DNA from: Fibrobacterota bacterium
GTDB taxonomy: Bacteria > Fibrobacterota > Chitinivibrionia > Chitinivibrionales > FEN-1185
Length of the DNA stretch: 64,000 nucleotides
Direction: 5' to 3'
Assembly (NCBI GenBank): GCA_003165595.1
Contig: PLWQ01000034.1
Coordinates: 1 to 64,000, forward strand
The notes under the pieces were generated by a model. It saw only the letters and a program-made list of their open reading frames with translations, had not been told where the DNA came from and made no database searches. Numbering within the stretch: the first letter of the stretch is position 1; each line of letters begins with the position of its first letter. Of the stretch, positions 4,824 through 38,292 are shown one piece after another. The position numbers were made by a program, and so were the translations under genes.

Positions 4824-5095
4824 AGCAAGAGTCCTTTTATAGGGTGAACTGTTGATGGTCCACTATCGGTATATTCCAATGGCTTTCGACGGAAACGGCC
4901 TCTTAAACTCGGCGTCTGCATTATCTACGTTTTTTCGCGTGGATAATTCAAACCGCTCATAAAGGAGAAAAATCTTGTTCCACAGTTAAAATCGGGGGAA
5001 AAGCGCAAAAAATTTGATAATTAAAACCCCTGGCTTAAAATCCTTACGCTTAGGAACGACAGTGACAATCCCGTCTATTTTCAGGAGAATCCCGG

Positions 5096-6061
5096 TTAGA
5101 AATTCATCGAAGCATGCAGCCCGATTTCCTTGGTTTGAGGATTGAGATCGGGCTCGAGTTTCATCTTGACCCGTGCGTCATGCAGATTCGCATCGACCAC
5201 GGCGTCGAATATTCCGTAGAGATAGAACGCAACGGAATACCACATCCACATGTTGCGGTTGCGAAAAGCCTCGCCCCGCCTTGATTCCCATTTATCCTGC
5301 TGCGGACCCTTAAAAAGGTTATACTGGTCGGCGTTGTTCGGATTTATCGCAGCCTCGTATTTCTCGCAATCCTTCATGATCAGGTGATAGTTGATCGCAA
5401 CATAGGCAAGGTCCATTTGAATCATGAAGATCATTCCCGCCTTGGAAATTTCCCCGTTGTACATCTGGCCAAGCCCTAGCCCCGGGATGGCGGAAAGCCA
5501 TGCTGCGGCTACCGGATCCTTCTTCGAGTCGCTCTTGAAAAGATTGGTGCCCTGGAGCGCGTCAAGCACGTTGTAGTAGTACACGCCCACCATCCACGCA
5601 ATGCTCTGATACAACACATTCTGTTGTTCCTTTTTCTCCATGTCCGCACTGTCGGCTTCGAGCTTCCCGAAAAACGCGCTGTCTATCCCGGTCGTGTCGC
5701 CCGCTTTCCGAACCCAGTTCCTGTAGGGGGCCCACTTCGCACCGGTGCTGTCCGCGTTGTGCTTGAGCGCGGCAGTCACCAAGTAGCGATTGTATATGTA
5801 CAACCCCAGAATCGCTTCCGTTGCAAAAAACAAGCCCCCCATAACGTAATGGCCTGTGTAAATCTGTCCCCCGCCCGGGACCACAAGCGACGCGGCGAGC
5901 GTTATGCCCACGTTCTTTAGCTTTGGCGGTTGGACGAGCTCCTCTTTTGCAATCGCAGTGGAGTCTTCTAGGCCGATACGGCTGGCCGAGTCTCCCTGCT
6001 GCGCAAATCCGAGAGATGCCAACATGAGTAACGATATCGATAAGAACCGGAAATGTTTCAT
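5096..6061 (-). CDS. DUF5683-like membrane protein with signal peptide
   Basis: 321 residues from the ATG at 6061 (an upstream in-frame ATG at 6106 would add 15 residues ahead of the signal peptide). Residues 1-20 are a signal peptide (FLSISLLMLASLGFAQQ). Two copies of a membrane hairpin motif follow: VPGGGQIYTGHYVMGGLFF and AIPGLGLGQMYNGEISKAG, each P-G-x-G-Q-x-Y-x-G plus a hydrophobic segment. The C-terminus (YGIFDAVVDANLHD) fits the DUF5683 family found in FCB-group bacteria. It is probably an envelope membrane protein; no biochemical role is established for the family that I can cite. It stands alone between AT-rich gaps. Confidence 0.7.
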   Translation of the reverse strand: MKHFRFLSISLLMLASLGFAQQGDSASRIGLEDSTAIAKEELVQPPKLKNVGITLAASLVVPGGGQIYTGHYVMGGLFFATEAILGLYIYNRYLVTAALKHNADSTGAKWAPYRNWVRKAGDTTGIDSAFFGKLEADSADMEKKEQQNVLYQSIAWMVGVYYYNVLDALQGTNLFKSDSKKDPVAAAWLSAIPGLGLGQMYNGEISKAGMIFMIQMDLAYVAINYHLIMKDCEKYEAAINPNNADQYNLFKGPQQDKWESRRGEAFRNRNMWMWYSVAFYLYGIFDAVVDANLHDARVKMKLEPDLNPQTKEIGLHASMNF

Positions 6062-6270
6062 TTTTTCATGAGCGGACGCACTGTACGTCCGCGCTCGGGA
6101 GTGCATAGAATGGGCCGGCCGATTTAACCCCTTAAATAATATAATTGATTTTCCCTCGTTGCGCAGATATTTAAGCGGGCATTAAGTAAGGTCCTGAACA
6201 CCACAACGTGCGGATTGTCAATCCATAACAAGCATTCGGAAGATTCAAGGATTCCGCGGAAGATTGATTG

Positions 6271-6879
6271 CTATGCTAGAACGTTGATCGACGAGGTCTT
6301 GGTCTTTACAAGAGGCTTTTTTGTGCCGTCGGCCGAATACGACATGGCAGGAGTAGATTTGGATTTTCCGTTCGGTGGAGTAACCTGAGCCCCGCCGCTT
6401 GAGCTACCGGTTTGCTGGCCCGCTTCATCCCTTCGCGCCTGCTCCTCGGTTTGTTCTGCTTCGGCAGCCACCGCCCTGTCCTGACCCGAAGGATCCGCCG
6501 GAGCCAGCGCGGCGGCCTTGACCGTTTCCATTTTCGCAATGGTCGCCTGCGGGTCGCCTTTGACAGGCGAGGTATCGATGGAGACTTCGCCGCCGATCGC
6601 ATACCTTTTTCCGTCCGGGCCTTCCTGGTATTGGAACGTGGCGCCGCCCTTGACGTATGCTCCACCGGCAGCCATGTGGGCCTGTTCATGCGCGCGCACA
6701 TCCTGGTCGCGCTGCTTGAGCTTTTCAACCTGTTTCTGCTGGTCGGGCGTGAGGCCGTCTTTGGAAGACGCGCTCTTGGGCTGCGAGCCGTTGTCCTTGC
6801 CATCGGGGCTTTTCTTGCCCGAGACGATCCCGAACAGATCCATCTGACTTGTGTACGCTGAGGCTGCGCCGACAGCCAT
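6271..6879 (-). CDS. SprA-related putative metalloprotease-like protein
   Basis: 202 residues from the ATG at 6879, chosen because AAGAAGG sits just ahead; an upstream frame to 6963 is open but has no such site. The core [13 protein letters not shown] (residues about 85-97) contains HEQAH, a zincin-like HExxH, followed by [14 protein letters not shown] and [13 protein letters not shown], typical of the SprA-related family. A Lys/Gln-rich segment precedes it, and a Glu/Gln/Arg-rich coil and Ser/Thr-rich tail follow. The family is annotated as a putative metalloprotease, but catalysis is not shown by the sequence beyond HEQAH. No signal peptide is seen. Confidence 0.75.
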
Positions 6880-7355
6880 GGTAACCTTCTTGAATAGGTA
6901 AAACGAAGAGGCCAGACCCCTCCATTTAGGAGTATCGGATGCGGGAGAAATACGCTTGAGCACATTTTTGGAATTCTCTTTTGGGGGCAGCAGTTGGCCT
7001 TTTTTCGGCAGATACTAGCAAATTCGGCTTGCTCTGCACTGCGATTCCGGGCAAATTTCGCCACGCACACGGTTGCCCCTTTGACTTCTTGCTTGCCGCA
7101 GCGGCAAAGCACGGTTGAAGGGCAAGCACGCATTCTTTGAACGCTTGCGCATCGAAAAATCAAACGTGAAAACAACACCGGTAATCAATTAATTTATATG
7201 ACGAAAATTGGCCGCGGCGCCCCACGGATGTCCGGATCTGGCGCAGGGATGCGAAGCACGCCGGGCGGGTTTGGTCGCCCCGAAACACCGGTTGGCCCGG
7301 GATGCTTGCACCCCTTGCGGGCGACGCAAGACAACGAACGCAATTTGGAGGAACC
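6880..7355. other. intergenic region upstream of htpG
   Basis: No gene or RNA recognised. The AT-rich stretch at about 7180-7200 (ATCAATTAATTTATATG) could hold the htpG promoter; I found no CIRCE-type inverted repeat and no clear sigma-32 pair. Confidence 0.4.
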
Positions 7356-9251
7356 ATGGCAGAAAACCAATCCGATTCTTCTCAGCGGCTCGGGTTTCAA
7401 ACCGAGGCAAAGCAGCTGCTCCAACTGATGATCCATTCTCTGTACAGCCACAAAGAAGTGTTTCTGCGGGAGCTTGTTTCCAACGCGTCCGACGCACTTG
7501 ACAAACTGCGTTTCGAGTCGCTCACGAACAGCGCCATCCTCGGCGACGACACCGAGCTGTGCGTTCGCGTCAAGGTAAACGAGACGGCAAAGACCATTAC
7601 CATAGCGGACAACGGCATAGGCATGACCCGCGAAGAGGTGATCGAAAACATCGGCACCATCGCTCGCAGCGGGTCGCGCGCCTTTGTGGAGAGCCTCACG
7701 GGCGACCAGAAACTGGATTCCAATCTTATCGGCCAGTTCGGCGTCGGCTTTTATTCGGCTTTCATGGTTGCCTCAAAGGTGAAACTCGTCACGAAGCGCG
7801 CCGGCGAGGGCCGCACGGCGGTGGTATGGGAATCGGACGGACAGAGCGACTACGCGATCGCGGAGACTGATAAGGAAACGCGCGGCACCGAGGTCACCGT
7901 CTATCTCAAGGACGACGAAACCTCCTATGCCGAGCCGTATAACGTGCGCTCGATCATAAAGAAATTCTCCGACTTCATCGCGTTTCCTATTTACTTTCCA
8001 AACGAGAAAGGTCACGACGAGGTCATCAACCAGACCAAGCCGCTGTGGAAGCGCCCGCCCCTCGACATCACGAGCGAACAGTACGAGGAGTTCTTCAAGC
8101 AGCTCGGCGGTTTCGACAAGCCCGCCACCACCATTCACAGCAAGGCCGAAGGCATCCTCGAATACTCGTTCGTGCTGTTCATTCCGTCAAAGGCGCCGTT
8201 CGACCTGTTCCTGCCGGAACGCACGCACGGCATCAAGCTGTATGTCAAGCGCGTCTTTATCATGGACCATTGCAAGGAGCTGTTTCCCGAGTATTTGCGC
8301 TTTGTAAAGGGCGTCGTGGACTCCGAAGACCTGCCGCTCAACGTGTCGCGTGAGATGCTGCAGCACAATCCCGTTATCGAGAAAATGAAGAAGACGCTGG
8401 TGGCCAAGGTTCTCGGAAAACTGTCCGATATGGCGGCCAGCGAACCCGCCGGCTTTGCCGCCTTCTGGGACCAGTTCGGGCCGGTGCTCAAGGAAGGCGT
8501 GCACTCCGACTACGAGAACAAAGACAAGCTCGTGGAGCTGTTGCGTTTCCAGTCCACGTTGTCCGACACCAAGGACGACCTCGTGTCGCTCAAACAGTAC
8601 GTCGGCAGGATGCGCGAGGGCCAGAAGCACATTTATTACATCAGCGGCGAGAGCAGGGAAATTGTGGAGAAGAGCCCGCACTTGGAGGTGTTCCGCGACA
8701 AGAGCATAGAGGTTCTGTATTTCCTCGACCCCATCGACGAGTGGCTTGTCAACGACTTGTACAATTACGACGGCAAGCAACTGAGGTCCGTGGCCAAAGG
8801 CGACCTCGATCTCGGCGACCTCGGGGCCGACGACGAGAAACAGAAAGACAAAGTGGAATCGACCTACAAGAAACTCGCCGAACGCATCAAGAACATTCTT
8901 TCCGATACCGTCAAAGACGTCCGCGTAACTGTCCGGCTCAAGGACAGCCCCTGCTGCCTTGTGTCGGACGAACACGACCTGGGACCATTCATGGAAAAGA
9001 TGATGAAGGCTATGGGCCAGGACGTTCCGGAATCCAAGCCTATCCTGGAAATCAACGGATTTCACCCGATCGTCGAGAATCTGCAGGCCGTATACGATAA
9101 GGACCCGAAATCGCCGCTGCTTGACGAATGGGTCAAACTCTTATACGATCAGGCGCTCATCACGGGCGGTGGTCTGCCAAAAGACGTGACCGGGTACGCA
9201 AAGCGGGTAAACGAGCTGTTGCTGAAAGCCTCCAAAGAAGCCGCCGCATGA
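7356..9251 (+). CDS. htpG: HtpG, Hsp90-family chaperone
   Basis: 631 residues, full length for bacterial HtpG. The ATG at 7356 follows TTTGGAGG. Family signatures: [19 protein letters not shown] (N-terminal ATPase helix with the metal-binding Asn), then [18 protein letters not shown] and [12 protein letters not shown] (GHKL nucleotide pocket), the middle domain with [11 protein letters not shown], and the C-terminal dimerisation domain. Hsp90-type chaperones use ATP to remodel client proteins in the cytoplasm. The stop codon overlaps the start of the next gene (ATGA), so the two are translationally coupled. Confidence 0.98.
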
Positions 9252-27830: not shown

Positions 27831-28532
27831 ATGATACGCAGTATCGTCCTCGTGGCGGTTATTGCCGCAACGTGCGCGGCGCAGCAGGCCACCATCGACA
27901 TCGACCAGTACAAAAAGTCAAACAAGCATACCTTCACCGAACGGGCCTACACCGTGGGAAAGCACACGTACCGCGTTGTAAACATACGGCCAATCGGCTC
28001 GTCCGACACCAACTGCATCTCGGCCGTGGTACTGGATAAGCGGAAGTACGTTCTGTTCGACGTTGAGGTTTCGTCAGGGCCTTTCGGTATGATAGTCCCT
28101 TCGGCACAGCCGGTTGCCGGAGGACTCATAATCGTGAAAGCCTCGCCGTACGATGGCAAGCTGTTTCTGATCTTGCCAAGCGGCAAAGTGGTAACGCTTC
28201 CCGGTGCCCAGGTGTTCGCCGACACGGCAGGCTCGTGTGTGTATTGTGTGTGGGAAAACGACAAGACCTTTCGGCTCACCGTGTTCGACTACAAGAACCT
28301 GAAGCTCGTATTGACAACCGCTGGGATCGCGGAGCCCAAGCAGTGGTTTACCGACGGCTTCACCTACGGGTTTGTCTCTTCCGACGGCGTCTACTACACG
28401 GTCGATTTCCTGCAAAAGGCTATTGTCAAGGGGGAAAAGCCGGCGAGCGGGCTTACCGCGGTTTCCTATATCGTCGATCTCGACAAAACGGATAGGGCTT
28501 CGTGCTGCGGGCCGGCGGTGATGAAGAAGTAG
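27831..28532 (+). CDS. exported protein of unknown function
   Basis: 233 residues from ATG 27831 with CGGGAGG ahead. Signal peptide residues 1-16 (SIVLVAVIAATCAAQQ). The body is rich in beta-strand patterns (YVLFDVEVSSGPFGMIVPS, GKLFLILPSGKVVTLPG, GFVSSDGVYYTVDFL), perhaps a small propeller or sandwich. Two cysteines near the end (SCCGP). No family recognised. Divergent from the preceding exported protein. Confidence 0.7.
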   Translation: MIRSIVLVAVIAATCAAQQATIDIDQYKKSNKHTFTERAYTVGKHTYRVVNIRPIGSSDTNCISAVVLDKRKYVLFDVEVSSGPFGMIVPSAQPVAGGLIIVKASPYDGKLFLILPSGKVVTLPGAQVFADTAGSCVYCVWENDKTFRLTVFDYKNLKLVLTTAGIAEPKQWFTDGFTYGFVSSDGVYYTVDFLQKAIVKGEKPASGLTAVSYIVDLDKTDRASCCGPAVMKK

Positions 28533-28538
28533 GGCTCA

Positions 28539-29186
28539 TTATTGCAAAATGATTAAGTCAGCACGAACGTAGATTGGTCTTTCATTTTTGAAACAAACGT
28601 CTTTATCAACATCAGGCCATAGTCTGCTTACTTTGGAACCTTCAATCTTTTTGATGTCCAATTCGCTGGCTGTGGCAGCCTGATCTGAAAAGCCAATAAC
28701 AACCACACCCGCAAATATCTGTGAGCCTTCCTTCTTGGCTAGTTTCTTTGTTGCTTTAAACACCGGTCCCAATTTTTCGATATCCATCTTGATACCTGCC
28801 AACATTTCAGACCCTTTGTTATGCCATCCTTTAAGGTTCCATGTTCGTTTAATTTCAAGAAAAAGTGATGGCAAGCCCAAATTGCTTTTTCTCATATAAC
28901 CAACGATATCAATTTCACCGGACACCTTTGGTCGCGCTTCTGTTGTGTATATGTTCCATTCTAACTCACAGACGATCTCATCTGATTGCAGCGCCGACCA
29001 AAACGCTGACCGTATTTGCTCCTCCTTGGGGATTTCATATGAATACCCTTTCCAAGCTTGGTACTCACCCCCTTTTTTCGGCCAAAGATAAGTGGCACTG
29101 GAACCAACATCTTTAAGAGTCTGACGAACCTGGTAGCTTGCATCCGTAATACGTTCGATGTAATCTTCTTGTGAAAAAACCATCAT
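28539..29186 (-). CDS. PD-(D/E)XK nuclease-like protein
   Basis: 215 residues; AAAGGAGGA lies just ahead of two adjacent ATGs. The catalytic pattern of the restriction-endonuclease fold is visible: helix KEEQIRSAFWSAL with Glu55/56, strand GEIDIVGY with Asp93, strand SLFLEIKRTW with Glu111 and Lys113. No signal peptide or membrane part. Last gene of a four-gene minus-strand group with an FtsK-gamma membrane protein and an FtsK-like protein upstream. AT-rich compared with the genes on both sides, a sign of transfer. By motif it should cut DNA or RNA, but activity and target are inferred. Confidence 0.72.
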   Translation of the reverse strand: MMVFSQEDYIERITDASYQVRQTLKDVGSSATYLWPKKGGEYQAWKGYSYEIPKEEQIRSAFWSALQSDEIVCELEWNIYTTEARPKVSGEIDIVGYMRKSNLGLPSLFLEIKRTWNLKGWHNKGSEMLAGIKMDIEKLGPVFKATKKLAKKEGSQIFAGVVVIGFSDQAATASELDIKKIEGSKVSRLWPDVDKDVCFKNERPIYVRADLIILQ

Positions 29187-29209
29187 TCCTCCTTTGCAAG
29201 GTGTCTCGT

Positions 29210-29584
29210 TCAGGCAATAAAATTTTCCTTCGCCCTCAAAATGCTCCCATATTCCTCATCTTCCTTCTTTATCACCTCCAAAATATCCTTCCTGTTCTTA
29301 TCATAATATTCATTCATGAATTCCAAAAAACGTTTCTCGCTTTTCACTCCCTTGGGTTTGAAAAGCTCCCGATATGGCTTGGCCGTCCCATACGGCTCGC
29401 CGGTGTCCCAATGGTATTCAACGAATTCATAATTGCGGTCAAACTTGAACCTGCTGATTCTGAACCCTTTTTGTTTTACATCGTAAATACCAAGAAAGGC
29501 GTTTCGCGCCGCGATAACATAGAGAAAACCATTCCTACATTCTTCTATCGGTATAAAATTCTTTCCCTGACTCAGCCGTTTCAT
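29210..29584 (-). CDS. small unknown protein coupled to FtsK-like gene
   Basis: 124 residues, start overlapping the FtsK-like stop by 4 bases (ATGA). Parts: GKNFIPIEECRNGFLYVIAA, NAFLGIYDVKQKGFRISRFK, then a charged helical C-terminus (EKRFLEFMNEYYDKNRKDIL). No family recognised. Coupled translation suggests a complex with the FtsK-like protein. Confidence 0.68.
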   Translation of the reverse strand: MKRLSQGKNFIPIEECRNGFLYVIAARNAFLGIYDVKQKGFRISRFKFDRNYEFVEYHWDTGEPYGTAKPYRELFKPKGVKSEKRFLEFMNEYYDKNRKDILEVIKKEDEEYGSILRAKENFIA

Positions 29585-30366
29585 TTTTGGCTCTTGAATG
29601 GGCTTCTTAATCGTATCTGGTCCCGAGCCCTGCTCATTCCAAACATCATTGTACCATCTTTGGGAAGTTTTTCAACTCCTGTCATGAACTGCGCGCCAAA
29701 AATCCGCTCACCGATAACTTGTGACGGCATTCGAAATGAAAGACACGACGTGGCCTGGGAACAAACAGAAGCAGCAAAACAAAGGTCCTGCATTTCCGAA
29801 ATGTTAATGCCGGTTATTGTCACAATGTGAAACGCCGCTCCGAAACCGTACAGCATGGTTAAGTCTTTATGAAAGCCTTTTTTGTAGTCCGTCAACAAAT
29901 CCTGCGCATTATTAGTAATGATAAATAGCGCAGGATATCGATTTTCCGGTGAATATTTTCGGTAATAATTCTCATCACGGTAGTGCGGTGAAAGATACTC
30001 ATTAAGGGTCGGGGGTATTTCTTTGCATTTTGCATAGTCTTTCCAGCATTTTTTGATTCTTGCCCTTAATTTATTTGTCAACCACATCGCCGCTTTTTTA
30101 TCTGCGGCAACTGGCGCATATAGAAACCTGTTATCCGCCAAGGAGCCAAAGATTTCCTGTCGCGTATCTATTATCGCCATTTTCAGCGAATGCGGCGAGT
30201 ATCGTTTTGTGAGGTCTTTGATACAGCCATTCAGCCAAGCCGTAATCCGGGTTTGGTCCATTCCAATGATCAGCAGGTGCTGCAACTTACTTGTGGGAAC
30301 TCTTACAATGGCGCCATTTTTCTTTTCACCAATTGTAACGTCGACTGTGCCATGGCTGGGTATCAT
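29581..30366 (-). CDS. FtsK/SpoIIIE motor-like protein lacking Walker motifs
   Basis: 261 residues. By eye it aligns over its whole length with the FtsK RecA-like motor: LQHLLIIG at residues 28-35 where FtsK has PHLLVAG, then GMDQTRIT (35-42) in place of GTTGSGKS, so the P-loop is gone; SPHSLKMAIIDT as in FtsK strand 2; YAPVAADKKAAMWL as in TPVVTD.KEA; ALFIITNNAQDLL (146-158) in place of the Walker B VVVDEFADLM; and SCLSFRMPSQVIGERIFGAQ (207-226), the FtsK segment RIAFRVSS.IDSRTILD. ATP hydrolysis is therefore unlikely. It may be a scaffold or DNA-binding pseudo-motor. It is coupled to the 124-residue gene. Confidence 0.72.
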   Translation of the reverse strand: MIPSHGTVDVTIGEKKNGAIVRVPTSKLQHLLIIGMDQTRITAWLNGCIKDLTKRYSPHSLKMAIIDTRQEIFGSLADNRFLYAPVAADKKAAMWLTNKLRARIKKCWKDYAKCKEIPPTLNEYLSPHYRDENYYRKYSPENRYPALFIITNNAQDLLTDYKKGFHKDLTMLYGFGAAFHIVTITGINISEMQDLCFAASVCSQATSCLSFRMPSQVIGERIFGAQFMTGVEKLPKDGTMMFGMSRARDQIRLRSPFKSQK

Positions 30367-30463
30367 ATCAAAACTCCAGAAAATGGAACAATGATTCCGT
30401 TAGGTGGCAAATATACGTGTTAATTAGTGGGAAACCCACTAAGAAGAATTATGTGAACAGAGA

Positions 30464-31486
30464 TCAAGTTCTCTTTGCACCTAATATCTTTTCAAGTATA
30501 CCTCTAATTATGCCCAACACCAGTATTATGATAAAGAGAAGCGGTGGTAGAAAGCTAATCCATAGAAGAAATTTCATTCCCGCTCGGTTCTTGAACCATC
30601 CGCGGGAAATTTCCTTTAGGAACTGATCAAACAAGAATGATTCTATGAACAAAATAACACTCCAAAGGATATAACACCAGATTCCAGATCCATTTGCCAT
30701 CTTCCAAATAGCCCATGAAAAGACTGTGCTCAAAAATGAAATGAAGAGAAAACTTTTAAAACCCATTGATTCTATTTTTTTTTGTTTCATAGAATTGGAT
30801 TGGCGTGAAGAAAGGACATTCGCATTGGCAACGGCATCATTAAGCGAAGTATTAATAGGAACGATCCGGATAGGATCTTTCAATTGCGCACGGAATTTAG
30901 ATAGTTCTTTTTGTTGTGCGGCCTGGCGTTCTTTTTCTGACGTATCTTGATTTTCTTTGTTAACTGTTAGTGATTTCCCCTTATTTTCGTCTTCCTCAAG
31001 AGATCGAACCCTTGTGTCGTTTTCCGATGGTAAACCATGGCTGTGGAGTAATGGACTTTTTAGTCGTCTTTTGTTTATCATGGTCTTATCAGAATTATTG
31101 GTTGGCTCTAAGGTCTGTCTTTGTTGGCGCAAATTCTGTATAAGTATCTCAAGTTCATCAGGTTTTAAATGAACTTCACGAAACCTTGTTCCTTCCGGAG
31201 GCCCAACAATGCCCACCTGATGAAGCTCATCCATGATATGCCCGGCACGCGAATACCCGATCTTCAGCCTACGTTGTAGAAGCGATATGGAACCTTGACC
31301 CATGCTAACGATCAAACGCGCAGCCTCCTCAAATAGTTCGTCCCTGTTTTCGACAATAATCTCCGGTATTTTTGTTGAAGTTATTTCGGGAACCGATGAG
31401 TTTTTCTTAGACGTGGTTTTCTGGCCGCACTGAGGACAAAAATTCACATGGTCAGGAATTTGAAGTCCACAGTTCACACAAAACAT
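30464..31486 (-). CDS. zinc-ribbon + FtsK gamma domain + membrane protein
   Basis: 340 residues from ATG 31486, seven bases after GGAGG. Cys3/6/17/20 (CVNCG and CPQCG) form a zinc ribbon. Residues about 49-106 are an almost canonical FtsK gamma winged helix: DELFEEAARLIVSMGQGSIS, LLQRRLKIGYSRAGHIMDEL, GIVGPPEGTRFREV. In FtsK this domain reads the KOPS DNA sequences and activates XerD. A charged linker (110-240) leads to three hydrophobic segments (about 243-263, 269-287, 304-330). The order is reversed from FtsK (gamma first, membrane last) and no motor is on the chain; the motor-like piece is the next gene downstream. AT-rich. Confidence 0.85.
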   Translation of the reverse strand: MFCVNCGLQIPDHVNFCPQCGQKTTSKKNSSVPEITSTKIPEIIVENRDELFEEAARLIVSMGQGSISLLQRRLKIGYSRAGHIMDELHQVGIVGPPEGTRFREVHLKPDELEILIQNLRQQRQTLEPTNNSDKTMINKRRLKSPLLHSHGLPSENDTRVRSLEEDENKGKSLTVNKENQDTSEKERQAAQQKELSKFRAQLKDPIRIVPINTSLNDAVANANVLSSRQSNSMKQKKIESMGFKSFLFISFLSTVFSWAIWKMANGSGIWCYILWSVILFIESFLFDQFLKEISRGWFKNRAGMKFLLWISFLPPLLFIIILVLGIIRGILEKILGAKRT

Positions 31487-31612
31487 TCTCTTGCCTCCAT
31501 ACGTTTCAATAACCAAGAATGCTTTTTCTTGACCTATGAATCATACAACTTATTTCCAATTGTATCAACATTTTCGCATGTCAAATCTATTCCAAAAAAC
31601 CTGATAGTATGG

Positions 31613-32800
31613 CTAAACTTTTGAAAACGCCAAGGGAAGCAGATCGTTCCGGCAATGTGCGCTTGCAATATCCGCGAATGAAAGTGATTTAAAGTCCAAT
31701 AGGTCCATTGTATCAGCCTCCCTCAACGCCATGACAAGGTACTTCAATGCTTTTTGTTTCCCCCCTTTTTCATAGTAAGTAGCTGACAAATGATTATACC
31801 ATATACTTAGGAAAAGCGATTCGCTGTTGACAACGGTCCTTAAAGTCATGATCTTTTCCGCCTTTTCCGGCTGACCAAGCTGCATGTAATATTCACCAAT
31901 CTGCATGAGTTTTGATGCATTTCTACCCCTTGCGGATACAACGGCGAGTTCGTCCAAGATGTTCTCCGCCCTTTTCCTCATCCCAAGTTTGAGAAAACGC
32001 TCGGCCCGCAACTCCATGCCGGTGGGATAATGGGTAGCTGCCAATTTGAACACACGGTTTGCCAATGAAATCGCTTTTTTCCTCATTCCCAGGGAAAGAT
32101 ACACATCGGAAATATGGTCATATGTTCTTTCACTGTAGGAATCACTGACGCCCTGTTTCTTTCTTAGACAGCTTTGCAGTTCTTCAAGATATTTCAATGC
32201 GCGGCTGATATTTCCGACCGAAACGCATGTTTCAGCAATTTCGCAAAACAAATAATCTCTGTACGGGCCGGGCGGATTTTTCTTCGCCGCAATTCCAGCA
32301 CTCCTTAAGGCCGTTTGCAATAGTTTTTCATCGCCAATTCTAAAAACAAACAATGCGGCATCACAATAGGGAAATTTTGGGTCGCCATTTTCTAGGGAGA
32401 TCCCCAAAACTTGTTTGATTTTTGGCACTAACGCCTTAGGAAAAGCCCGATCTCCATTTCTTTCACATTCCCCGGCGATTCTTAGAAGACCCTTCGCTTT
32501 ATTACTATTGTCGATTCCCTCTAACAAGGCCAAAGCACGCCTTGCGTGATCAAGTTGGGCAAATCTGAAGGCGATTTTGTAGAAATGATAATTTCGGAGT
32601 TTAGCGTCTTTCATTTCATCGGCCAAGGGTAAACTGTACCGAAGTACGAGCAACGCTTTTTTCTTCAGGTCAAATAGGTCAAAGCGATGCGTGATCTCGG
32701 TGAGGGTGCGAAGTTTTACGTCCGGGTTCTGTACGGTTTTGGCCACCTGGAAAGCCTTGTCCAAGAGGCGAATCGCGAAAGGATTGATTTTGTCGTTCAT
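31613..32800 (-). CDS. TPR-like repeat protein
   Basis: 395 residues from ATG 32800, behind AAGGTGAAG; a longer frame to 32902 is open but lacks support. Repeated helical hairpins with small residues at TPR positions: RALKYLEELQSCLRKKQG, YDHISDVYLSLGMRKKAISL, RAERFLKLGMRKRAENIL and GEYYMQLGQPEKAEKIM. No signal peptide or enzyme motif. Lies 126 bases upstream of the FtsK-gamma gene in the same AT-rich, same-strand block, so it may belong with it. Confidence 0.75.
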   Translation of the reverse strand: MNDKINPFAIRLLDKAFQVAKTVQNPDVKLRTLTEITHRFDLFDLKKKALLVLRYSLPLADEMKDAKLRNYHFYKIAFRFAQLDHARRALALLEGIDNSNKAKGLLRIAGECERNGDRAFPKALVPKIKQVLGISLENGDPKFPYCDAALFVFRIGDEKLLQTALRSAGIAAKKNPPGPYRDYLFCEIAETCVSVGNISRALKYLEELQSCLRKKQGVSDSYSERTYDHISDVYLSLGMRKKAISLANRVFKLAATHYPTGMELRAERFLKLGMRKRAENILDELAVVSARGRNASKLMQIGEYYMQLGQPEKAEKIMTLRTVVNSESLFLSIWYNHLSATYYEKGGKQKALKYLVMALREADTMDLLDFKSLSFADIASAHCRNDLLPLAFSKV

Positions 32801-33084: not shown

Positions 33085-34233
33085 TTACCCCTTTCCGCCG
33101 TCTTCCAGAATCTTCGCCAAAGGCAGAAATTCCACCATCACGTTGCCGAATTTTTTCTTATAGGCGGTCTTGACGGATGGAGCGAGCACCCAGTTTTCCC
33201 CACGCGGATAGAGGGAACGGAATACCGCCAGATTGTCCGGTTTGAATTTGTCCGGGTTGTTTTTGCATTCGATGGCGGTCACGCTGCCGCGATTTCCGGC
33301 AATAATAAAATCCACCTCTCGGCCATCCTTGTCGCGCCAGTACATCACCTTTTCTTCCCCGAACGCCGCCTGCAGGACATCCAGCACCACGTGTTCCCAC
33401 AGAATTCCAACATCGTCGTTCCTAAGGGTGTCCCAGCCTTTTTCATGACATACAAAGCCTGTGTCGAATCCGTACACGCGCGGCTGGTGTGTGATTTCAC
33501 GTTTATTTCCGCCGTGATACGGTTTGACGGCAATCACCGCATGTGAAAGGGACAATGCATCGATATAGGAAATTGCCGTAGGCCTGCTGATTTCGGATTC
33601 AGCGGCCAGGGATTCGATGTTCAGCGCTCCTCCGCTCTGACGAATAAGCAATTGCAGGCATTTAATGAACCCGGCGCGATTCCGCACATTGAACAGCTCC
33701 TGCACATCGCGGGCGTAAAAGCTATCGAGCCATTCGGAAAAAAAAACCGGATCCTGCCGCATTGCAAGCAGTTGCTGGGGCAGACCGCCATGCAGCAACC
33801 GGCGCCCCAGATCGGAAATACCGGCATCAACGGGACATTCGGTCCACATCACCGGAGGCAAATGAATGGACACTTTCCTGCCGGTGAGCGAATCCCGGAA
33901 CTTTTTTGTCGCAGCCAAGGTCGACGATCCGGTGGCAAGCACGCGAAGATGAGGATAGGCGTCGGCCGCGATTTTCAACAACCTGCCGGGATCGTCGAGA
34001 CGATGGAGCTCGTCCAGAACAATGCGGGTCCCTTGGGGAAATTTATCAAGAAACAGCTCCGGATCAGCCATGCCGCGTACCTCGGACGGCAAGTCGCAAT
34101 TGACGTACTGGCTACGCACCAGCATGGAGGCAAGCGTGGTCTTTCCCACCCGGCGTACGCCCGACAGCCAGATGACGGGCCTTTTCCGCCAAGCGGCCTC
34201 TATCCGTGCAATCCAGAAGGGTCGAAGAAACAT
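33085..34233 (-). CDS. AAA ATPase of the DUF4143 family
   Basis: 382 residues. Walker A GVRRVGKTT (25-33), Walker B IVLDELHR (71-78), sensor ATGSS (about 96-100). The C-terminal DUF4143 part (residues 190-382) holds a winged helix (LAAESEISRPTAISYIDAL) and a nuclease-like core: YWRDKDGREVDFII then SVTAIECKNN, a D...ExK arrangement. Large families of these ATPases occur in bacteria and archaea without a firmly known role. Independent gene, AT-rich gap upstream. Confidence 0.9.
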   Translation of the reverse strand: MFLRPFWIARIEAAWRKRPVIWLSGVRRVGKTTLASMLVRSQYVNCDLPSEVRGMADPELFLDKFPQGTRIVLDELHRLDDPGRLLKIAADAYPHLRVLATGSSTLAATKKFRDSLTGRKVSIHLPPVMWTECPVDAGISDLGRRLLHGGLPQQLLAMRQDPVFFSEWLDSFYARDVQELFNVRNRAGFIKCLQLLIRQSGGALNIESLAAESEISRPTAISYIDALSLSHAVIAVKPYHGGNKREITHQPRVYGFDTGFVCHEKGWDTLRNDDVGILWEHVVLDVLQAAFGEEKVMYWRDKDGREVDFIIAGNRGSVTAIECKNNPDKFKPDNLAVFRSLYPRGENWVLAPSVKTAYKKKFGNVMVEFLPLAKILEDGGKG

Positions 34234-34394: not shown

Positions 34395-35504
34395 TCAATA
34401 ATTCATCCACACCAGCCACTGCCCGAAAAACGGATTTACATACCGGTACTCATTATCGGTCTTGAACAGGATTTTTAAATCGTCGAGCCTCATCAGCGAT
34501 TTCCTGACCGTGGAAGGCTGGCGGATGCCGGCGGCTGCGAGGAAAGCGCCCGAAAGCGTGTTCTTGCCGCCGAGCCTGGCTACGGTAACGAGGCATATAA
34601 GTTGCGTTGCGGTAATATTGGCCAGGCACGCTTCGTACCCCTTGCGCTCTTCGGCAAAGATCTGCTGCAGGGCTTCCGTCAAGGTGTTCTCGCTCACCGT
34701 GCTGTTGGGATTCGTTACGTCGAACACGGCTGCGCAAAGCTGTTGCGTATCGCCGGGATTTTCATTGGCAATGTGCAATATCCGTTCGATTGTCTCGGGG
34801 GCGATCCTTATTTTTGCCTCGCCGAACTTACGGGCGATGAATTTCCTGAAGGCAAAGTGATCGATGGTACCCACCTCAATCGGCAGCGCGGACTTGAAGA
34901 ACGGGCTATCGTGGTCGGTAAAGATCGTGTGCATTTTCCCGCGTATGCTCCCGCAGAAAACAAAAGGGACGTTGTGGAGGAACTGGATCTTACCCCGCAT
35001 GACAGCCAGGACCTTGTACGCTTCCGGAAGGTTCAGGATGTCCTGGAATTCGTCGATGACCACAACGGCGTTACGGTATTCCCGTCCGGAAAAGATGTCG
35101 AGCAAGCCTTCGAGTGATTCCGGAAGGAGCCTGGCGGCGGCATGGATCGAAAGGGATGGCGAGCCATTCAGCGGATCAAAGGATAGTGTCGGCCGCAGGG
35201 CCACCACGCTCTTCAGGGCGGTTTGAATGAAATTTGCGTTTCCTTCCGCTTTGACTATCCCGTTGAGCGTGCGTTTGTGCACGTCTTCGATTGTCCGGAC
35301 TTCAAGCATATCCACGTACACCAGGCGTTTTGAAGTGATCCCGACCACTGTTTGAATGACAAGCGATGTCTTGCCCGTTCTGCGCTCGCCTTCCAGATAG
35401 GTGTTCTGGACTGCGAGCAACCGTTGCCTCAGCTTTGCCTCCAGCTCCGGACGGCCGCAGTAATTTTTCCTGGAGACGACGCGGCCATAGGTGAAAGGGT
35501 TCAT
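34395..35504 (-). CDS. AAA ATPase of the archaeal/STAND-like type
   Basis: 369 residues. Walker A EGERRTGKTSL (38-48), Walker B AVVVIDEFQDIL (about 146-157), sensor-like FVFCGSIRG. C-terminal winged helix (TATQLICLVTVARLGGKNTL, AAGIRQPSTVRKSLMRLDDL). This is the pattern of Orc1/Cdc6-like or MoxR-unlike archaeal-type ATPases used in bacterial signalling, toxins or defence. A 7-base inverted repeat lies just ahead of its start, suggesting self-regulation by a dimeric repressor. Confidence 0.85.
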   Translation of the reverse strand: MNPFTYGRVVSRKNYCGRPELEAKLRQRLLAVQNTYLEGERRTGKTSLVIQTVVGITSKRLVYVDMLEVRTIEDVHKRTLNGIVKAEGNANFIQTALKSVVALRPTLSFDPLNGSPSLSIHAAARLLPESLEGLLDIFSGREYRNAVVVIDEFQDILNLPEAYKVLAVMRGKIQFLHNVPFVFCGSIRGKMHTIFTDHDSPFFKSALPIEVGTIDHFAFRKFIARKFGEAKIRIAPETIERILHIANENPGDTQQLCAAVFDVTNPNSTVSENTLTEALQQIFAEERKGYEACLANITATQLICLVTVARLGGKNTLSGAFLAAAGIRQPSTVRKSLMRLDDLKILFKTDNEYRYVNPFFGQWLVWMNY

Positions 35505-35757: not shown

Positions 35758-37491
35758 TTACTGTTTCCTTATCAACTCGAAATTGCATATTCGCGCGTCG
35801 AACCCGCCTGTGGCATCCTTCATGATTGCGCCCGCAGGATCGAGGGCCAGGAGAATGTCGTTTCCTTCGAGCAGAGACCCGTCGTACCCGAGGTCGAGAA
35901 GCCTGTGCTGCAGGGCGCCGAAGATTTTCTCATATTCGGAAGGAGAGATAACGTTCTTGGCGCTGGCGCTCACCAGATCGATAGGCCTGTACAGTTGTCC
36001 TTTCTGATCGGCAACCCAGGAATCGGACCCATTGAAATATCCGCGGATGGAGATGTAGTTGCGGTTTTCAAGTAGAATGGGATTGCCGTCGGGGCCGGCG
36101 AGGTTCTTGTGCGACTCGTACCGCCTCCGGTCGGTGGACTGTTCCACCTTCTCGCTTCCGGTCATGTAGATCGCACGAACGTACACCGCTCCTATTCCTT
36201 TGTCAATGAGAAACTGCGCGATGGCGAATTCTTCAAACGGGCTGTTGAACCCGAATTCCACGGCCTTCCGAACGTGGTCCTGAGACGGGCCGCTCACGGG
36301 CGTTTCACCGACGCGCGACGTTTTCCAGACGATGTGCACATTGTCCTTTGTCACCGTGTAAAAGACCTCGTTGTCTTCCGAAAGCCGCCAACTCACGGTC
36401 CTTCGCCATCGCTCTGGCAGGAAGTAGTCGAACAGGCGCGCGTTGCGCCCCACCACCCACAATTGGCCGCCCGTGCTCTCCACGTGGCCGTGAATATACG
36501 GCACGCCGAACACCTCCATCGACTGCAGGTAGGGCGGCAGGGGTGTTGGAATCAGCCGGTCGCGCTGGTCGTCGAGGTAGGAATGACGGCGGGAATACTT
36601 GACTTCCTCTTCGTGAAGCGGCGTGCGGAGCAGCAGCTCGTAGTCGACAACCGAGTAGTTGCCCTCCTCCACAAGCCCGTGCACGAATTCCACCTGTTTG
36701 GTGCGCGCCGCCTCGCCGCACGACATCCCCATGTCGGCGATGACCTTGGTATAGTCCTCGCCCAGAATCACGTGTGCTGGCTTCATGTCGGCTACGACAT
36801 ATCCCTTTTTGTCAAGATCATTGATCGCCTTGCGGGTTATGGGCTCCAAGGCGACGGAAAGCTCCTCGGCCGACAGCCCCAGGTCCACGAAGGTGTCCAC
36901 CACGTTCTTTCCCTGGATCCAGCCGTACACCAATTTGTACTGGCGCAGGATGTCGAGGTCGACGCCGGGATGGCGTGCCTTGATCTTGTTGATCTTGGAC
37001 CGCGAGCGGCCGCTTTGCCACAACTGCATCTTTTCGGGTGGGACGTAAATCGCGAGCGGTTCCTGCGTATTGATGACGACGCCGGCGGGTCCGTATTTTC
37101 CCTCGCGCAGTTCCATGACAAGAGAGAATTCCTCCCAGGGACTGTTGAATTCCGCGTTGATGAACTCCATAAGCGTGTGCGTATCGAGCGGAACGTCTTC
37201 TCCCACTCGGCAATTCTTCACCACGAGTTCGATGCTCCTGCCGTCAATGGTTTTGGTGGGCACCCGATACACGGCGCCGGTACCCTGCAGGTGTTCGCGA
37301 TGCTCCTCGAACCATTCCTTTTCGTACCAGTTCTCCACGGCCAGCAGCGACGCGAGCGGCAGCCCGTGAGGCGTGAAATACATGTCGCCGTTGTCGATGG
37401 TCTTCTTGTGCACGTACACAACGCCGAGAATGCTGATGAGGGATTCAGGCGCGACAATCACGTGCAGGTTTGCTGTTTCGTGCTGTACCAT
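35758..37491 (-). CDS. tandem protein-kinase-like (pseudo)kinase, 577 residues
   Basis: No standard family recognised, but kinase landmarks appear. First half: Lys92 in ELVVKNCRVGE, the loop VVADMKPAHVIL (residues 232-243) with Asp235 and Lys237 as in H-x-D-x-K-P-x-N, and IADMG (251-255) in place of DFG. Second half repeats the N-lobe: IVWKTSRVGETP (388-399) and FGFNSPFEEFAIAQFL (413-428) correspond to residues 91-100 and 115-126 (EFNSPWEEFSLVM). Its loop GYDGSLLEGNDILL (about 537) has lost the catalytic Asp-x-Lys. So it reads as an active-like kinase domain followed by a dead copy. Cytoplasmic; 253-base gap downstream. Confidence 0.65.
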   Translation of the reverse strand: MVQHETANLHVIVAPESLISILGVVYVHKKTIDNGDMYFTPHGLPLASLLAVENWYEKEWFEEHREHLQGTGAVYRVPTKTIDGRSIELVVKNCRVGEDVPLDTHTLMEFINAEFNSPWEEFSLVMELREGKYGPAGVVINTQEPLAIYVPPEKMQLWQSGRSRSKINKIKARHPGVDLDILRQYKLVYGWIQGKNVVDTFVDLGLSAEELSVALEPITRKAINDLDKKGYVVADMKPAHVILGEDYTKVIADMGMSCGEAARTKQVEFVHGLVEEGNYSVVDYELLLRTPLHEEEVKYSRRHSYLDDQRDRLIPTPLPPYLQSMEVFGVPYIHGHVESTGGQLWVVGRNARLFDYFLPERWRRTVSWRLSEDNEVFYTVTKDNVHIVWKTSRVGETPVSGPSQDHVRKAVEFGFNSPFEEFAIAQFLIDKGIGAVYVRAIYMTGSEKVEQSTDRRRYESHKNLAGPDGNPILLENRNYISIRGYFNGSDSWVADQKGQLYRPIDLVSASAKNVISPSEYEKIFGALQHRLLDLGYDGSLLEGNDILLALDPAGAIMKDATGGFDARICNFELIRKQ

Positions 37492-37551: not shown

Positions 37552-38292
37552 TTACTTCGGAGAAAATAGTCCCTGCCGCACATCGCCCATTGCCCGGAGC
37601 GAGCGCCCGGCGGGAAGCGTAAAGGCATTGCCGGATACGCCCTTGTTGACTAAAGCCCTGGAAATAAGCACCGTGTCGGATGTAAGCACGCCGCTGCATC
37701 TTTTCCGGATTACGATGCGCACCGGGAAATCGTACACCCGGCCCTGCTCATCGTAGCGCGCCTTGATTTGCCGGTACATCTCGCCCTGGTCGTCGAAGCT
37801 TTCTATGCAATCGAGCGCCCCCGATTCTCTGCTGTACGCCAGCACGTCGGTTGCATACCGGTCTTTTCGGGCGTAATAGCGGTGGTCGTCCGTTTGCCCG
37901 GCCATTATCATCGACGCGGTGTCGGTATTGACACATCGGAGAAACGCATCGAAGAAATGAACCGACTCGTATAAATCGTCACAACCGCGGGGCCCTTCGC
38001 CGCGACGCGCCGTGTAGCCGCCGCCATGCCTGGCGTCGATGCCGAACATTGCGGTGTCGTTGATTATGAACCTGAAACCGAACGGCGCGCCGTACTCGTA
38101 CGCTGCCGCGCCTGCCGCCGCATCGTAGAAAAAACGGCCTTTGGCGACCTTTGAAAAGCCGTTACAGGCGTTCTTCCTGATAATCGTACATTCAACCGAA
38201 GATATACGCCGGGGCTCGGGCACCTCATCCTGCGCAAGAAGCGCGGATTGCGCCAGAAGAAGAGCGGCGGGCAGTAGAATGATTCGCTTCAT
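37552..38292 (-). CDS. exported LolA-like protein
   Basis: 246 residues with a signal peptide (IILLPAALLLAQSALLAQ). The succession VECTIIRKNACNGFSKVAKG, GRFFYDAAAGAAAYEYGAP, FGFRFIINDTAMFGID and RQIKARYDEQGRVYDFPVRI suggests the LolA/LolB-like half-barrel found in lipoprotein carriers and outer-membrane lipoprotein-sorting proteins. Three internal cysteines. No Lol partners nearby, so the assignment is by fold impression only. It could also be another periplasmic beta protein. Confidence 0.6.
   Translation of the reverse strand: MKRIILLPAALLLAQSALLAQDEVPEPRRISSVECTIIRKNACNGFSKVAKGRFFYDAAAGAAAYEYGAPFGFRFIINDTAMFGIDARHGGGYTARRGEGPRGCDDLYESVHFFDAFLRCVNTDTASMIMAGQTDDHRYYARKDRYATDVLAYSRESGALDCIESFDDQGEMYRQIKARYDEQGRVYDFPVRIVIRKRCSGVLTSDTVLISRALVNKGVSGNAFTLPAGRSLRAMGDVRQGLFSPK

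Follow-up and report, generated by a model that had tools for sequence, protein, structure and literature searches.

Several described systems resemble parts of the protein analysed here. The JAK/TYK2 kinases carry an active and a dead kinase domain (JH1/JH2) in one chain. Haspin, PRPK/Bud32 and RIO2 have atypical or reduced C-lobes, and haspin and PRPK are protein kinases that lack a canonical activation segment. Other divergent kinase folds, such as SelO and SidJ, perform AMPylation or glutamylation. WaaP (PF06293), one of the LPS heptose/Kdo kinases, is a small, single-domain enzyme in which the catalytic Asp is followed five residues on by His instead of Asn; the motif of E. coli K-12 WaaP reads HRDCYICH...VIDLHR. 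AceK, the isocitrate dehydrogenase kinase/phosphatase, shows that a bacterial PKL enzyme can govern a single branch point of central metabolism. The key residues of the PKL superfamily have been laid down in a scheme of 20 families (PMC1821047). A review of the PEP/oxaloacetate node describes GTP-type PEP carboxykinases (PEPCKs) as devoid of allosteric control (PMC8100219).

The gene considered here lies in a window of 64,000 nucleotides from a Fibrobacterota genome. Translation and an 82-member alignment define an ORF of 577 aa on the minus strand, running from 37491 to 35758 with its stop codon, in agreement with the coordinates of an earlier note on this DNA (35758-37491); all parts of this ORF and all other window ORFs located below are likewise on the minus strand. 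Comparison with a congener gave a dN of 0.15 and a dS of 1.1, with third codon positions accounting for 248 of the 409 differences, and the ORF is a real gene under purifying selection. Judged from sequence and structure prediction, its product is a kinase-like copy joined to a disabled copy in a single chain, and represents an undescribed family. The novelty lies in the family and its architecture, within a known fold superfamily (PKL). The arrangement recalls JAK/TYK2, and the earlier note had suggested that the pair may work by JAK-type control; the family, however, is bacterial, has minimal C-lobes and carries the active copy first, in reversed order. Among open-access papers, searches for pseudokinase or kinase-like partners of PEPCK and for bacterial pseudokinase families brought up no title or abstract that describes it. 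A large conserved family of uncultured and little-studied phyla, covered by no Pfam or NCBIfam model, resembles a kinase with a built-in pseudokinase.

Internal duplication and predicted fold

Repeat 1 (residues 16-315; 36547..37446), delimited from alignments and residue counts, is kinase-like and holds all catalytic residues; repeat 2 (residues 316-577; 35761..36546), assigned from hhalign, AlphaFold2 and Foldseek, is a degenerate kinase-like domain. Comparing 82-sequence alignments of the two halves, hhalign put the probability of a match at 99.8% and its E-value at 2.5e-30; the 234 matched columns run in the same order in both repeats, from the first beta-hairpin through the DFG-like motif. 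A rerun gave E 5e-29, eight column-shuffled decoys gave 0.011-0.58 and a reversed control 0.4. The duplication is visible in the window sequence itself, where BLASTP detects the repeated N-lobe segment at E 2e-4; the paired stretches on which the earlier note had based this recurrence (ELVVKNCRVGE with IVWKTSRVGET, and EFNSPWEEFSLVM with FGFNSPFEEFAIAQF) are present as quoted.

The AlphaFold2 model of the whole chain, from an 82-row alignment, has a pLDDT of 89 and a pTM of 0.75; repeat 2 alone reaches 93 and 0.91. Searched against the PDB with Foldseek, the whole chain matches CDK9 best (E 5.5e-4, probability 1.00), with kinases only among the 50 matches listed. Haspin leads for repeat 2 (E 2e-3, probability 0.98), TYK2 JH2 and PRPK stand further down, and the matches listed, WEE1 among them, are all kinases or pseudokinases. 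No TM-score to a known kinase exceeds 0.44 by target length; such low values, like the modest E-values, would be expected of a divergent, truncated kinase fold. A PKL fold is therefore predicted. Sequence profiles lead independently to kinases in the region of the catalytic loop: to RAD53 and ULK, to ABC1 in 16 of 82 members, and to PglW. With the profile match far above its shuffled controls and with kinase-like models, the tandem of duplicated kinase-like folds postulated in the earlier note stands up, including to the structure prediction it had called for.

The same note knew of no close kinase family, and the databases agree: the 577-aa protein has no Pfam match over the cut-off and none in NCBIfam. 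The best Pfam match, to ABC1/UbiB/ADCK (PF03109), covers the catalytic-loop region of repeat 1 and stays sub-threshold (16 of 82 members, best E 1e-4), the window protein scoring 14.5-16.3 bits against a gathering cut-off of 22.9; the family further differs from ABC1/UbiB/ADCK in its tandem form and its D-x-K-P-x-H and D-[YF]-E motifs. To the eukaryotic-type Ser/Thr kinase model (PF00069) the window protein shows no match and two of the 82 members match weakly (best E 0.029), and both HRD and APE are absent from the family. Pfam cut-offs thus rule out an ordinary Ser/Thr kinase or an ABC1 member. Haspin, PRPK/Bud32 and RIO2, whose solved structures are some of the closest to repeat 2, share about 11-15% identity with it at TM-scores of 0.28-0.44 by target length, and have other motifs. 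No sequence relation to AceK was found; the likeness would be a functional analogy, as the substrate of the present family is putative. NCBIfam, PHROGs and PADLOC gave no convincing match, and a defence role is not supported, since what the weak matches to PglW and PD-T4-6 reflect is the kinase catalytic region.

Catalytic residues of the two repeats

Residue counts were taken from the alignment of 82 homologues, with identity down to about 40%. In repeat 1, G70, K92, E121, D235, K237, H240, D283 and E285 are each invariant (82/82). G70 belongs to a glycine-loop-like segment (LQGTGAVYRV, residues 68-77; 37261..37290), which in the family takes the form R-L-x-G-T-S-x-V-Y-R-V; D373 of repeat 2, with which G70 aligns, varies across the 82. 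K92, within LVVK92, is the beta-3 (VAIK-type) lysine (37216..37218). E120 and E121 lie in helix C (residues 116-130, NSPWEEFSLVMELRE; 37102..37146), where NSPFEEF resembles a helix C and the modelled helix spans 118-130. The catalytic loop is V-A-D235-M-K237-P-A-H240 (residues 233-240; 36772..36795), with the family form V-x-D235-x-K237-P-x-H240. The numbering of D235 and K237 in the earlier note was right, as was its impression that the first copy looks intact. Its choice of IADMG as the DFG motif fails: that stretch falls in a lineage-specific insert (residues 249-266; 36694..36747), occupied in 14-17 of the 82 homologues and missing from 66, whose occupancy corresponds to a 16-member clade that includes the window. 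The true equivalent is D-Y-E (residues 283-285; 36637..36645), with the family form V-D283-[YF]-E285, which pairs with N570-F-E572 of repeat 2.

Of the PKL key residues, G52, K72, E91, D166 and D184 find their equivalents in G70, K92, E121, D235 and D283; the place of N171 is taken by the invariant H240, as in WaaP, Val stands where kinases have the HxD His, and the D220/helix F region is absent, repeat 2 and single-domain relatives stopping near DFE. Measured against the published scheme (PMC1821047), the superfamily core is present and none of the family signatures testable here is. Because the full catalytic set is invariant, we infer that repeat 1 is catalytic: it very probably binds ATP-Mg and transfers phosphate, with K92 and E121 holding ATP, D235 acting as catalytic base, and D283 and H240 serving as putative metal ligands.

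The non-canonical active site, with His for Asn and DYE for DFG, could also suit another nucleotide chemistry on a kinase fold, such as AMPylation or glutamylation, for which SelO and SidJ set a precedent among divergent kinase folds. We regard this as very improbable: no SelO or SidJ family match was obtained by sequence (Pfam, NCBIfam), and the catalytic Asp that is missing in the SELO family (PMC3281104) is invariant in repeat 1.

Repeat 2 has lost both the catalytic Asp and the DFG Asp, the mark of a pseudokinase, much as the earlier note had read it. Its degenerate catalytic loop (GYDGSLLEGND, residues 535-545; 35857..35889) has L540 at the Asp position, a column occupied by N in 45, L in 13 and D in only 5 of the 82 sequences, and its DFG equivalent is N-F-E (residues 570-572; 35776..35784), with N570 in 81/82 and E572 in 80/82. 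The beta-3 lysine position, K390 (36322..36324), is K in 57 and R in 19 of 82. Helix C (residues 416-430; 36202..36246) retains E420 in 82/82 and E421 in 80/82. Since E420, E421 and E572 are kept, repeat 2 is a degenerate copy with a conserved pocket and not a decaying one. It can be read as a catalytically dead copy whose most likely role is regulation, docking or sensing.

A conserved but altered pocket of this kind (E420 82/82, N570 81/82, E572 80/82), together with the His in place of N171 and the Val in place of the HxD His in repeat 1, would fit a protein in which neither copy is catalytic and which serves as an allosteric adaptor, binding PEPCK (or OadA/pyruvate carboxylase) according to its ATP/GTP state. 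Such an adaptor seems quite unlikely to us, as the invariance of K92, E121, D235, K237, H240 and D283 over 82 highly diverged sequences is hard to account for without catalysis, and we continue to read repeat 1 as a probable active kinase.

Family distribution and single-domain relatives

Of 61 relatives covered by a genome search, 13 carry the family. When GTDB contigs were scanned, it turned up at 129 places, and 80 of these were retained as loci. Carriers belong to Fibrobacterota, Verrucomicrobiota, Lentisphaerota, Kiritimatiellota, Planctomycetota, Spirochaetota, Elusimicrobiota, Omnitrophota, Nitrospirota, Myxococcota, Thermodesulfobacteriota and others; the family thus spans at least a dozen phyla in a patchy distribution. 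A tree built from 82 members places the window within the fully supported 16-member clade, which mixes at least six phyla, so that interphylum transfer is likely, mis-binned contigs remaining possible. One genome (G032) carries tandem paralogues. Two full-length paralogues in tandem (4983-6731 and 6836-8578) are followed at locus L015 by a PfkB-type sugar kinase gene, and locus L005 likewise adjoins such a gene.

In four genomes of the Verrucomicrobiota sample, single-domain relatives occur as open frames of 306-356 aa. They match repeat 1 only, retain K, E, D-x-K-P-x-H and D-x-E, and end near DFE. All four (L107, L108, L109 and L110) directly adjoin argJ, not PEPCK; ribosomal protein genes lie near some of them. 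Such natural forms show that repeat 1 can stand as a module by itself. They also show the minimal C-lobe, which follows from both repeats ending near DFG, to be real. Since single-domain and tandem forms both exist, the origin and role of a pseudokinase could be studied by comparing them.

The truncated C-lobe bears on the nature of the substrate. Without D220, APE or an activation segment, a different mode of substrate choice is to be expected; recognition of a protein substrate is not inferable from the fold, and the lack of an activation loop, APE and the helix F-I region makes a small-molecule acceptor possible. The protein might then serve central carbon or envelope metabolism as a small-molecule kinase, with repeat 1 acting on a metabolite of the PEP/oxaloacetate pathway or on a sugar, lipid or LPS component, repeat 2 in a structural or product-sensing role and PEPCK as a pathway neighbour rather than a substrate. 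The minimal C-lobe, the D-x4-H in place of D-x4-N found also in WaaP, and sub-threshold matches to ABC1, WaaY and Kdo kinases are in keeping with this. The WaaP parallel, however, is confined to the motif: WaaP has DLH at the DFG site, profile-to-sequence comparison found no alignable similarity beyond the motif, and homology to WaaP was rejected. Moreover, haspin and PRPK also do without a canonical activation segment and are protein kinases, and what recurs beside the family's gene codes for an enzyme, neither for a transporter nor for a separate metabolite pathway. A small-molecule kinase is, in our judgement, unlikely, though to be reckoned with.

Linkage to PEPCK and putative function

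The gene context was analysed by clustering the flanking ORFs of 85 loci. The only genuine recurrent neighbour family is PEPCK of the GTP type, found at 10 of the 85 loci in at least five phyla and confirmed by PF00821 in all six loci checked (L009, L010, L017, L026, L079 and L091). PEPCK lies downstream at L009, L010, L026, L045 and L047, upstream at L017, L023, L025 and L091, and is divergent at L079; at least six changes are needed to place this adjacency on the tree. Of the next large neighbour clusters, some are antisense shadows of the family's own genes, and others consist of promiscuous domains (response regulators, ABC ATPases). Three further loci (L071, L077 and L081) adjoin a PYC/OadA-type carboxyltransferase (oxaloacetate decarboxylase/pyruvate carboxylase-type subunits).

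A test of 50 family-bearing genomes from many phyla found GTP-PEPCK in every one; three draft genomes with the family (G031, G533 and G654) yielded PEPCK of neither kind. In the window's order, PEPCK accompanies the family in 11 of 12 genomes and occurs in 7 of the 28 that lack the family (Fisher p 1.3e-4, for genomes that are not phylogenetically independent). Co-occurrence is uninformative in Verrucomicrobiota, where 173 of 195 genomes have PEPCK, and in Elusimicrobiota (2/2 with the family, base 66/120), and Spirochaetota show no enrichment (3/5 with the family versus a base of 107/179). Many genomes with PEPCK do not carry the kinase-like family. Co-occurrence was consequently discarded as stand-alone proof, PEPCK being near-universal in Verrucomicrobiota and the association flat in Spirochaetota. 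Adjacency and co-occurrence both point to a PEPCK-linked function, adjacency strongly and co-occurrence informatively in some lineages only, and the main functional evidence is gene linkage. ATP-PEPCK was dismissed as a partner, with none over the cut-off in the sample of the window's phylum; among 53 family-bearing genomes no separate ATP-PEPCK was found, weak PF01293 matches overlapping GTP-PEPCK ORFs. By score, the GTP-PEPCKs form two classes, one with E about 1e-155 to 1e-177 and the other with E about 1e-95 to 1e-110. Both sometimes occur in the same genome, and the kinase-like family is linked to both.

The linkage might also be incidental, with the function lying elsewhere, for example in envelope or stress-control signalling. 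PEPCK is missing from the flanks covered at 75 of the 85 loci, many flanks being incomplete, and within the genus of the window the neighbouring position is taken by an uncharacterised ORF of 246 aa. Shared synteny, however, hardly explains ten loci spread across the tree in three arrangements, and we hold an incidental linkage to be improbable.

Our preferred reading, tentative and held at somewhat less than even confidence, is that repeat 1 is a kinase and repeat 2 its regulatory pseudokinase, and that the protein acts at the PEP/oxaloacetate node, with PEPCK as the likeliest target. It would probably work with GTP-type PEPCK, or else with a different enzyme at the PEP/pyruvate/oxaloacetate node. 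Phosphorylation of PEPCK, or nucleotide-dependent binding to it, would set the direction or amount of PEP-oxaloacetate flux, much as AceK acts on isocitrate dehydrogenase. Repeat 2 may dock the substrate, which could be why PEPCK-linked members are tandem and argJ-linked ones single. A more specific version, doubtful but worth stating, is that the family would be the first dedicated kinase-pseudokinase switch of GTP-PEPCK, in which repeat 1 phosphorylates PEPCK, repeat 2 senses the nucleotide or metabolite state, and the pair sets the PEP/oxaloacetate direction. As GTP-PEPCKs are without allosteric control according to the review of the node (PMC8100219), a dedicated partner would fill a gap. 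If true, the switch would decide in many phyla between PEP to oxaloacetate (fermentative, energy-conserving) and oxaloacetate to PEP (gluconeogenic). A PEPCK-adjacent kinase-like partner would offer a testable route to bacterial switching of this node.

The kinase-like gene of the window does not itself adjoin PEPCK, which this genome encodes on a different contig (C3). The 246-aa ORF (37552..38292) is located upstream, about 60 bp away on the same strand; it has no match in Pfam and by eye is perhaps LolA-like. A similar ORF also lies upstream in the congener (G001, locus L002), and in the window's genus it may share a transcript with the kinase-like gene. Directly downstream are two consecutive ATPase genes (33085-34233 and 34395-35504), AAA_14/DUF4143 and ATPase_2-like, the latter below the cut-off; the congener has a different gene at this place. 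GC content falls to 0.41-0.46 at 28000-32000, from about 0.55 around it, which suggests that DNA close to the two ATPase genes was acquired. By eye, the ORF at 30464-31516 has an N-terminal zinc-ribbon-like CxxC...CxxC segment, a stretch (RDELFEEAARLIVSMGQGSISLLQRRLKIGYSRAGHIMDELHQVGIVGPPEG) resembling an FtsK gamma winged helix and C-terminal hydrophobic helices, and the next ORF (29581-30366) may be FtsK/EssC-like; the pair would be unusual if this domain reading is right.
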